NCBI GenBank assembly: GCA_030041095.1
Contig: JASHON010000051.1
Location: forward strand, 1 to 38,265
Source of the DNA: Terriglobia bacterium
GTDB taxonomy: Bacteria; Acidobacteriota; Terriglobia; UBA7540
Direction of reading: 5' to 3'
Length of the DNA stretch: 38,265 nucleotides
The position numbers and the translations under genes were made by a program. Within the stretch, counting starts at the first letter, position 1. Each line of letters begins with the position of its first letter. Shown here one piece after another: positions 8,417 through 11,878 of the stretch. Below the pieces are notes generated by a model. The model saw only the letters and a program-made list of their open reading frames with translations, did not search any database and had not been told where the DNA came from.

Positions 8417-10291
8417 CTAATTCGGCGTCGGCGGCTCGATGTGATCCACCACCAGCACCTCCACCGGTCCCTTGGCAGCCTTCAGTTTCAGGCCCAACTG
8501 CTGCTGGAGCGCCGTGAAAATCGACGGGCCGGAAGAATCAGAGGAGCCGGGCGCCGCCACCACTCCCGTTGCTTGTTCCTCGTTTCCAGCATGTTCCGCG
8601 CCGCCAGAGATCCCGTTCACCTTGCTCGCCAAGGGTGTCCACGTTAGTGTGAAATCGTAGCGGCCCGTGAGGCCTGTTTTGTTTATCACTATGCGCCCCA
8701 ACTCGGCTTGCGCTTCATATTGCGAGAGAACGCTGGCGAAGAAATGCATGGAAGCTCCCGCTTCGACGAGGTGCCCGCGCCAGCCGTCGTTCGACCGGGT
8801 TCCCGGCTCTGCGTTCGTCGGTTTTAGCTTCGGGCCGCCCTTGGCGACCACCAACTCGTAGACTGGCAGCCGCCTGGTTTCTCGATGCACCTTCAGTTTG
8901 AAGCGGTCCGTGAGAAGAGATCGCAACATGTCGTCCCAGCTCTGCCTAAGAGCTGCATGCGCCTGCGCTCTTTGCTCGGGTGGCAAATTCCGAAGCAAGG
9001 CAGAATCCTTCGCCATTCCTGGCGGAGCCTCTGCCTGAATGGTGTACCTGGCGGACCTTGCCCAGGATGGCAGGCCTTCGAGTTGCTGCGGCATTATCTG
9101 GTAAGCTCTCTTAATCAACCAGCTTACCGGAACGGTAGCCCAGAGCCTCCCGTTTGAGCTGTGCGACCTACTTCCACGCCCGGGCTTGGCAGGCCTGATG
9201 GACGCGACTTCGAAAGACTTCGGCAAGTCTGCGTAAAACGATTTAGGCAGAGCCGTTTGCGCGACCGCGATCCAGCCCGGAATCAGGCCGCCTGCGCCGA
9301 GAAGCAGGGCAAGCAGGAATGCGCTCAAGCCGAGATTGGCCCGCGACGGCCGTTCGGAAAACTTCCGCCCGCGGCGAAGCAGCGATTCCATGCGTTCCAG
9401 CAAGGAGGAATTGCGGCCCAAGATGCCCGGCGCTAGCAGCCGCGTGCCGGCACTCCAACGCAAATCGTGCAGCTTGGCGAGGCTTCGCGCGTAACTCCGT
9501 GCCGAACCGGTGCGCGCGACCACATAATCGTCGCACGCCATTTCGCGCTGGCGCTCAATCTGCTTTATCACGGTCGCTGCCAAGGGATGCAAAATCAGAA
9601 ACGCACCAAGCGCGTGGGTGGCCAAGGCCATCCAGTCGTCGTAGCGCGCGAGATGCGCCAGCTCGTGCAGTAGCACGTCCCGCTTTTCGCCTTCGTCCAA
9701 CCGTGCCAGCAATTCCGGCGGCACGATAATCGCCGGACGGAGATACCCCACAGCTACGGGTGAGGCGATTTCTGCTGAGGTCAGCAATTGCACTCGCCGG
9801 CGCAGGCGTATGGGCAGCGTTTCCACAGTGGCGCTCTTCGCCCGCGTTTTCAGCCGCCGCACCGACCGGACGGCCCTCAGCAGCCGCGTCAATTGCCAGC
9901 CTGCGGCGATCAGCCAAGCCGCCAGCAGCCACAGCGGCCATGGGCGTGACCTGGGCCCCGCGTCTACCCTCAGGGCGAGGGGAGCAGATCGCCGGACACT
10001 CACTGGCGCCGCTGGAACCGAAGCCAGCGGCGCAGTTGCTGTAGCCGCTTGTGGCCGTGCCTCCAGCGCAGAGCGCGCCTGCCTCACGAGCCCGGGCAGG
10101 AAGGGCAATGCGATCAGCGATGCCAGCACCGCCGTCCATATCCAATAGCGTGTTGCCGCATTCACCCGCGGCCAGCAGCGCAGCCCGGCCCAGGTCAACA
10201 AGACAACCGCCCCGCCGTACCACAGCGTATTCAGCAGCGCCGCGAGCCCTGCAGCCGCCATTTGATTCACCCCAGCGATCCACGCGCTCAT
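8417..10291 (-). CDS. M56 (BlaR1-type) membrane metalloprotease fused to a C-terminal DUF3738/TIGR03435 domain
   Basis: The N-terminal 345 residues form an M56 peptidase. There are hydrophobic segments near 15-40, 50-70, 118-138, 222-240 and 322-345, an HExxH zinc site (H209, E210, H213 in [13 protein letters not shown]) and a downstream glutamate in the REMACDD block near 250. Residues 360-624 are a DUF3738 domain: [29 protein letters not shown], then the closing [14 protein letters not shown] and [10 protein letters not shown]. In BlaR1/MecR1 the same position holds a penicillin-binding sensor domain, so DUF3738 is likely the extracytoplasmic sensor here. Known relatives cleave or inactivate BlaI-type repressors after ligand binding. 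It overlaps the BlaI gene by ATGA, so the two are translationally coupled. The ligand is unknown. Confidence 0.9.
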   Translation of the reverse strand: [624 protein letters not shown]

Positions 10292-10686
10292 GGCTTCGCC
10301 TCCTCATCAAACTTCTCCAGTAGCTTCCGAATCCGTTGCCGCTTCCCCTCGTCCAGCTCCTCGTCCTGCAAGATATTCAACACCAGGGACTCGTGCGAGC
10401 GGTCAAAAAAGCGGCGCAAGAGCTCGCGCACTGCGCTGCGAGTGGCATCCTCGCGGTCTACACGCGGCCGGTAGATGAACGCCCGGCCCTGCTCCAGCTT
10501 CCGGTGCCGCACGTAGCCCTTCGCTTCCAGAATCCTCATGGTGGTGAGCACGGTGTTGTAAGCAAGATCCAATTGTGCTGGCAAGGCGCCAGAGATTTCA
10601 GCCACCGTCGCCTCACCTTTCTTCCACAACACATCCATCAGCCGCAATTCCGCCTCAGTCAAGGTCGTCGATCGTTTTCTCGGCAC
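10288..10686 (-). CDS. BlaI/MecI/CopY-family transcriptional repressor
   Basis: A winged-helix repressor of about 132 residues (LTEAELRLMDVLW, AYNTVLTTMRILEAKGYV, then a dimerising helical C-terminus). The segment LVLNILQDEEL near residue 104 lies where staphylococcal BlaI carries its Asn-Phe cleavage site; here the pair is Asn-Ile. I prefer the GTG at 10686, giving a family-typical MPRKRSTTLTEAE start, because GGAG lies six bases upstream. An ATG at 10698 is in frame but has no Shine-Dalgarno sequence and lies inside a palindrome. The gene overlaps the M56 gene by four bases and is preceded by a promoter with inverted repeats, consistent with autoregulation. Confidence 0.92.
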   Translation of the reverse strand: MPRKRSTTLTEAELRLMDVLWKKGEATVAEISGALPAQLDLAYNTVLTTMRILEAKGYVRHRKLEQGRAFIYRPRVDREDATRSAVRELLRRFFDRSHESLVLNILQDEELDEGKRQRIRKLLEKFDEEAKP

Positions 10687-10695
10687 TCTTCGCTC

Positions 10696-10725: not shown

Positions 10726-10754
10726 AGCGTAGCACCGCGACAAGACCTTGTCAA
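10726..10754 (-). promoter_or_regulatory. Predicted promoter of the BlaI-M56-TonB operon
   Basis: On the minus strand there is a perfect TTGACA -35 (10754-10749), a 17-bp spacer and TACGCT as a weak -10 (10731-10726). It lies 40 bp upstream of the preferred BlaI start. The -35 overlaps an inverted repeat, as expected for a self-repressed operon. No start-site data exist, so this is a sequence prediction. Confidence 0.5.
10739..10752. promoter_or_regulatory. Candidate BlaI operator (GACAAG-N2-CTTGTC)
   Basis: A perfect 6+6 bp inverted repeat, GACAAG-AC-CTTGTC, lies over the -35 element and spacer of the predicted promoter. BlaI-family dimers bind short dyads at such positions. The link to this BlaI is an inference from location. 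Confidence 0.5.
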
Positions 10755-10864
10755 CTATTTCCATAAGTTAGCTATCCAGCTTGTATTCAATAATTTACAA
10801 GGATACGACGCGAAGAATGCTGATAACTCACCTGTTTTATAAGTCCCTGGCCAAGGGCTTGAAA

Positions 10865-11878
10865 TCAATCCGCGGTCGGACGCTCGGCATGCTCAATTAC
10901 GAGAATCCGGACCGGTCCTTTCTCCGGTTTCAGCTTCAGGCCAAGCTGCTGCTGAAGCGCTGTGAAGATTGAAGGCCCGGAAGAATCCGCGACGACGGGG
11001 CCAGGGCCCGAACCTGGCTCAGAATTCATTCCGGCCGCTTGCTGCCCACTGGCGTTTCCGCCCGGGCCCATGGCGCCACCCGGACCACGTCCTCCGAACA
11101 TCCCACGCTCACCTGCGCCCGGCGCCCACTTCAGAGCGAAGCTATAGGATCCCTTGAGCCCGGTCTTATCCAGCACGGTGCGCCCCAGGAATTGTGAGAG
11201 GATGTGCGCCAGGTTCGACATGGGAGTATCTTGGAACGTCATATCGCCTCCGGCTCTCATCGAAACCATCATGCGCGGCCCCGCTCCGCCGCCTGGAGCT
11301 CCTGGCGCGCCCGTGCCAGGAGCGAATGGGGCTCCCTTGACCGGCTGGATCTTGGGCCCGTGCTTCGAAACCACCAGCGCATAGATGGGAAGCGTTCTGG
11401 TTTCGTTCCTGATCTTTAATCGGAACCGGCTTGCCAGGAGTTTCTGCAGCATGCCGCACTTTGCCAAGCGGCCCTCGTAGGGGCTCATCTTGGCCAGCTT
11501 GCTGTTCACGGCGCTATCGGACTTTGCCTGAATATCGAATCGATCGGAATTCATCCAGTTCGGCCCTCCGGAAATCTGCGAGCCCTGAACCTGGTAGGCC
11601 ATTTGAATGAGCATTTTCAATGTGAGATTGGTGCCATAAAACCTGCCGTCGTTCGGAGGGTTCATGATGCGCATCATCATTTTGCGCATGTCGAAGGACT
11701 TCGACTCCGTGATCGAAGCCACTTCGAACGAAAACGGCGAGGCTGGCCGGGATTGAGGTGGCGACTGCGCTTGTGGAGGCTTGGCCAAGCCAAGCACGTC
11801 GAGTGCGGCCAGTGCCAGGAATCCGGAAATAGCCGATAGCGCCTTTCCGTTTCGCCCGATCGTGTGTTTCAAATTCAT
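10865..11878 (-). CDS. Secreted DUF3738/TIGR03435 family protein
   Basis: A 337-residue exported protein. A signal peptide (hydrophobic stretch near 15-32) is followed by a full DUF3738 domain from residue 51: [55 protein letters not shown] and the closing [14 protein letters not shown] / [10 protein letters not shown]. It is clearly paralogous to the C-terminal domain of the neighbouring M56 protein; the last 35 or so residues are almost the same. Two Gly/Pro/Ala-rich inserts (about 185-205 and 258-295) are absent from the M56 copy. The ATG at 11878 has AAAGGA nine bases upstream; an ATG at 11905 has none. The function of this soil-bacterial family is unknown. Being next to the BlaI operon suggests a shared circuit. 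Confidence 0.88.
   Translation of the reverse strand: [337 protein letters not shown]

Follow-up and report, generated by a model that had tools for sequence, protein, structure and literature searches.

The window, a stretch of 38,265 nucleotides covering positions 1 to 38,265 of contig JASHON010000051.1 of a Terriglobia bacterium, encodes a BlaI-type repressor and an M56 membrane protease with a DUF3738 domain in the sensor place, flanked by genes for a secreted DUF3738 protein and an Oar-like outer-membrane barrel. These genes probably specify a proteolytic switch of the BlaR1/BlaI type, which responds to whatever is bound by the secreted DUF3738 proteins and controls their dedicated outer-membrane partner. 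This reading builds on the observed gene content, the protease residues and BlaR1 fold, the conserved promoter, the tie to a single barrel group, repeated independent fusions, and domain interchange.

Genes of the DUF3738 Locus

The features of the locus, in order of transcription, are as follows:

10865-11905, minus strand: secreted DUF3738/TIGR03435 protein, 346 aa, with an N-terminal signal-like hydrophobic stretch (AlphaFold mean pLDDT 83)
10700-10759, minus strand: conserved promoter and putative operator of blaI, consisting of AATAGTTGACA, a 17-nt spacer, the -10 box, and then TTAATTNNNTAGTT at 10713-10700
10288-10698, minus strand: BlaI-type repressor (Penicillinase_R), from the ORF call and Pfam
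8417-10291, minus strand: M56 (BlaR1-type) membrane metalloprotease with a C-terminal DUF3738 sensor (HELAH at residues 209-213, Glu250)
8420-9229, minus strand: DUF3738 sensor domain of the M56 protein, approximately residues 355-624 (Pfam and NCBIfam)
5112-8399, minus strand: Oar-like outer-membrane barrel (CarboxypepD_reg and OMP_b-brl_4), belonging to the orthologous group tied to DUF3738

Thus, the secreted DUF3738 gene is followed by blaI, the M56-DUF3738 gene, and the barrel gene. The blaI and M56 genes overlap by 4 nt, and the M56 stop lies 17 nt before the barrel gene. Two starts, at 11905 and at a second ATG at 11878, are equally likely for the secreted DUF3738 gene. For blaI, comparison with relatives makes the GTG at 10686 likelier, and the likely start of the barrel gene is the ATG at 8384. 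Pfam identified DUF3738 (PF12543) in both the secreted and the M56 protein (E of about 2e-55 in each; score of 188 bits, curated cut-off 22), as well as Peptidase_M56 (2.5e-30), Penicillinase_R (1e-32), and OMP_b-brl_4 (3.5e-151) plus CarboxypepD_reg. Both DUF3738 proteins also match NCBIfam TIGR03435 with 213 and 230 bits (curated cut-off 40). The initial annotation, made from the sequence alone, had described a BlaI/M56 pair with DUF3738 in the sensor place, a secreted DUF3738 protein upstream, and an operon running on into an Oar-like protein; these domain matches and the 17-nt spacing bear out all three parts. A histidine kinase and an OmpR-type response regulator are encoded on the same strand directly upstream of the secreted DUF3738 gene (12025-14354) and were treated as neighbours.

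The source genome, a 4.88-Mb assembly, contains five DUF3738 matches: two in the window, two M56-DUF3738 genes on contig 83, and one fragment on contig 16. The second blaI operon of this genome (L033:2991-7884, contig 83) carries the two M56-DUF3738 genes in tandem, together with a third M56 gene that is truncated.

Linkage of DUF3738 to One Group of Barrels

Approximately 50 barrels of the same Pfam family are encoded in the window genome. With the window barrel as a query, the best match in all 12 DUF3738-positive genomes searched was the barrel gene that immediately follows a DUF3738 gene, at 48-68% identity; the next best match reached at most 43%. Among further genomes, the barrel was present in 8 of 11 with DUF3738 and in none of 21 without it. 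No plug domain was found in the window barrel in the Pfam output at E 0.001.

Co-occurrence was then counted in 220 genomes of the class that were at least 90% complete, with the barrel called at E ≤ 1e-125. In total, 70 genomes contained DUF3738 and 63 contained the barrel: both were found in 58 genomes, DUF3738 only in 12, the barrel only in 5, and neither in 145. The barrel was therefore present in 58/70 DUF3738-positive vs. 5/150 DUF3738-negative genomes (Fisher p 6e-35, a value that ignores kinship, as the genomes are not phylogenetically independent). Four of the five barrel-only genomes have a match at the paralogue-level identity of 35-45%, and the fifth has a contig-end fragment. In the initial annotation, a lack of co-occurrence of the three genes across acidobacterial genomes had been named as refuting its reading; sensor, secreted paralogue, and Oar gene instead prove to be linked recurrently. 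Counted by hand from the coordinates, at least approximately 39 of the 58 genomes have a DUF3738 gene on the same strand no more than about 2 kb upstream of the barrel, and the chance of such adjacency under random placement of 50 DUF3738 genes per genome is below 1e-60. Only 11-12 of the 25 M56-DUF3738 genes run into an Oar gene, the others standing alone, as do 67 of the 89 standalone DUF3738 genes. Given these unlinked single copies and the 12 DUF3738-positive genomes lacking the barrel, the association is strong without being absolute.

The tie to one barrel argues that the thing recognised concerns, or passes through, that barrel, which may either import a ligand or export DUF3738 proteins. 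The latter role leads to an alternative that we consider rather unlikely, namely that the Oar-like barrel exports or docks many DUF3738 proteins and that M56-DUF3738 is a tethered substrate that reports on free substrate or on the barrel's state, whereby the supply of barrels is matched to demand. Such a sensor of export load would fit the ratio of a single barrel orthologue to anywhere from 1 to over 50 DUF3738 copies in a genome, the conserved C-terminal Asn resembling a sorting signal, which is the exact end of 105 of approximately 119 members, and the requirement of Myxococcus Oar for secretion of the protease PopC (PMC6434023). However, most members contain little beyond the domain itself, with few cargo-like additions, the C-terminal Asn is kept on membrane-bound sensors too, and Oar-type export is known for one protein in one organism. 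Equally doubtful is a further reading in which one Oar-type barrel exports or displays a large, expanding DUF3738 family. Here the switch would use one of its own substrates, in tethered form, as the sensor and so adjust barrel output to the DUF3738 proteins in the periplasm, and copying of secreted domains would renew the specificity of the sensor.

Repeated Fusions and Exchange of the Sensor Domain

In a tree of M56 domains including 24 other M56-type proteins, the M56-DUF3738 proteins fell into four separate lineages, and a single clade was rejected (AU p 3e-48). M56 thus became fused to DUF3738 at least four times in separate lineages, three of which adjoin the same Oar group. These results bear on a reading of the linkage as loose association, in which DUF3738 is a general periplasmic binding domain picked up by M56 proteases and by expanding families, and its nearness to Oar reflects ancestral gene order with no joint function. 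Many other C-terminal domains do occur on M56 proteases and most DUF3738 genes are not near Oar, yet the two genes stay adjacent in different families and came to be so with three separate lineages of M56, and genomes lacking DUF3738 have almost no members of the barrel group. We therefore regard this reading as improbable, more so than the sensing of export load.

In a quickly built DUF3738 tree, sensor and secreted domains interleave, with 19 changes between the two states, at least 9 of which are forced by supported branches. One such pair was found in G048, where a sensor domain (L099:8348-9214) and a secreted gene (L102:8587-9454) share 868 bp at 98.7% DNA identity, although misassembly is possible in this 200-contig assembly; the shared segment corresponds to the domain plus 15 nt, and the flanks are unrelated on both sides. 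In the window, the two DUF3738 domains are not sisters: the secreted one has its nearest neighbour in a sensor domain from a different genome (52%) and is approximately 42% identical to the sensor of the window itself. The interchange argues that sensor and secreted DUF3738 domains may recognise the same thing, as with the BlaR1 sensor and beta-lactamase.

In their closing segments, described at first as near-identical, the two DUF3738 proteins of the window are indeed alike, with 74% identity in protein. The DNA identity of these segments is only 72% and only 14 of 29 silent third positions are the same, by which a recent gene conversion or copy was rejected; as the segments match the family-wide consensus, the likeness is a conserved hallmark of the family.

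In one subclade of DUF3738 proteins (L064, L079, L081, L055, L061, L062, and L070), an extra N-terminal domain of approximately 100 aa (GTWQGTL...YSIDQGG...GTWTQGG) was observed. This domain, for which no Pfam match was found, occurs on secreted members and on the L070 sensor alike. At L065:1599-3020, a Redoxin/AhpC-TSA domain is joined to a divergent DUF3738.

The Protease and the Repressor

The HExxH motif and the downstream Glu are invariant in the 25 M56-DUF3738 proteins. The AlphaFold model of the window M56 protein matches S. aureus BlaR1 (8exs) over residues 15-299 (Z 18.9, 240 residues, 3.1 Å rmsd), and the blaR1_generic model, scoring below its cut-off, covers residues 44-305 only. 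Since both the structural match and the family model end before DUF3738, the window protein is a BlaR1-type protease without the beta-lactam sensor. A true BlaR1/MecR1-type regulator of beta-lactam resistance, as the BlaI partner and the M56 protease domain might suggest, is extremely improbable and beta-lactam sensing was rejected, because the C-terminal sensor is DUF3738 (PF12543), no penicillin-binding domain was found in the M56 protein by Pfam or NCBIfam, and a scan of window proteins gave no beta-lactamase.

Of the 25 M56-DUF3738 genes, 21 have a blaI gene just upstream; the remainder come second in a tandem, apart from the L031 gene, which is preceded by a blaI remnant. In BlaR1 systems, the M56 protease cleaves BlaI once the outer domain is engaged. 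At the place matching the cut site of S. aureus BlaI, the window BlaI reads SLVLNI, a stretch resembling that of S. aureus; other lineages differ there. The S. aureus protein is cleaved between Asn101 and Phe102 (PMC9834060). Other exchanged sensors were observed in DUF3738-negative genomes, where the M56 proteases L146, L148, and L157 have C-terminal regions recognised by eye as GWxTD-like.

The blaI Promoter and the Limits of the Operon

The blaI promoter of the window comprises a -35 box TTGACA at 10754-10749, within AATAGTTGACA, and a -10 box TACGCT at 10731-10726, and two TAGTT copies in the element are 53 nt apart. The same arrangement (WWTAGTTGACA, then TANNNT after a 17-nt spacer, with the TAGTT repeated exactly 53 nt on) is common to six blaI upstream regions from three genomes of the lineage of the window, two each in the window genome, G001, and G079. 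Genome-wide, the gapped pattern matches twice, each time directly upstream of blaI, and the reversed control gave 0 matches. In other lineages, blaI is preceded by sequences resembling TACTACA..TGTAGTA. A perfect palindrome (GACAAG-GT-CTTGTC) that spans the window's -35 box was dropped as an operator candidate, being absent from relatives. A generic promoter scan gave nothing above chance and misses the blaI promoter, whose -10 box is weak.

In the window, the element is located between the secreted DUF3738 gene and blaI, and no copy was found upstream of the secreted gene. For these two reasons, the secreted gene is not clearly a member of the BlaI operon or regulon. Of the regulated envelope circuit proposed initially, a BlaI/BlaR1-type system with a different sensor is supported, but inclusion of the secreted gene is not supported in the window, where it lies upstream of the blaI promoter without an element of its own. 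The initial suggestion that the secreted paralogue might share, compete for, or deliver the ligand of the sensor is an inference. In G079, G080, G053, and G014, secreted DUF3738 genes are located inside the operon, between the M56 gene and the barrel gene.

A natural loss of the repressor was observed on contig 11 of G001 (L031:9762-9930), where the promoter is intact but only the first codons of blaI are left. The M56-DUF3738 gene, which has 77% identity with that of the window, is kept.

The DUF3738 Family

DUF3738 is a large acidobacterial orphan family without a known role, represented by 1 to over 50 copies per genome. In an alignment of 112 domains, two residues are invariant, Arg106 and Gly268 (numbering of the mature secreted protein), and the ending is conserved. 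The AlphaFold model of the secreted protein is confident (pLDDT 83) and shows two alpha/beta lobes with disordered inserts. A search for fold relatives of this model gave nothing below E 0.1 in Foldseek and nothing above Z 2.9 in VIA-align, and the sequence profile gave chance-level matches only against solved chains. The order of strands and helices in the C-terminal half resembles STN, suggesting an STN-like duplication. Such a duplication is not claimed here, because the profile comparisons were unconvincing, both between the N- and C-terminal halves (P 0.01-0.03) and, by hhalign, with acidobacterial STN domains (P 0.004-0.2, the best out of register; no match in Foldseek).

The literature searches gave no paper on DUF3738 or TIGR03435, and the paper on Solibacter paralogues does not name them. 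The present gene arrangement was not found under BlaI/M56 together with envelope or TonB topics either. Likewise, none of the papers searched describes the linkage to the Oar group, the recurring fusions with M56, or the interchange of domains.

Proposed Mechanism

In the favoured reading of a BlaR1/BlaI-type switch, the M56 protein would be an inner-membrane protein whose protease faces the cytosol and whose DUF3738 domain lies in the periplasm. BlaI would bind the conserved promoter and repress its own operon (blaI, M56-DUF3738, and the Oar-like barrel). Engagement of the DUF3738 domain is predicted to cause the protease to cut BlaI, whereupon the operon would be derepressed. The sensor would correspond to a secreted DUF3738 protein in tethered form, with the same partner or ligand, and the dedicated barrel may be the outer-membrane component through or on which the secreted proteins act, presumably by physical contact.

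The linkage gives DUF3738 three concrete partners (BlaI, the M56 protease, and one barrel) and thus a testable function. It also reveals the BlaR1-type switch as a chassis: its sensor domain was swapped several times, and the resulting lineages converged on one partner gene. The association of the whole set with one outer-membrane protein marks it as a genuine, uncharacterised cell-surface system of soil acidobacteria.

Comparison With Known Systems

Both DUF3738 proteins of the window are clear members of TIGR03435/PF12543, a paralogous family named after Solibacter and with no assigned function. The outer-membrane partner shares with Myxococcus xanthus Oar (PMC6434023) the combination of CarboxypepD_reg and a large outer-membrane barrel, a likeness by domain type; it differs in adjoining DUF3738 and BlaI/M56, and Pfam found no plug domain in it. 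Like FecA-FecR signalling via STN domains, the system appears to link surface signalling to an outer-membrane receptor, and the C-terminal half of DUF3738 has an STN-like strand and helix order, although the STN profile comparison is not convincing; in contrast to FecA-FecR, the window encodes a protease and a repressor rather than an anti-sigma factor. BlaR1/BlaI and MecR1/MecI of S. aureus and B. licheniformis have the same repressor and M56 membrane protease, overlapping genes, protease fold and residues, and a sensor domain resembling secreted proteins. The differences lie in the cut-site region of BlaI (SLVLNI in the window), in the sensor, which is DUF3738 and not a beta-lactam-binding domain, and in the target operon, which encodes an outer-membrane barrel.
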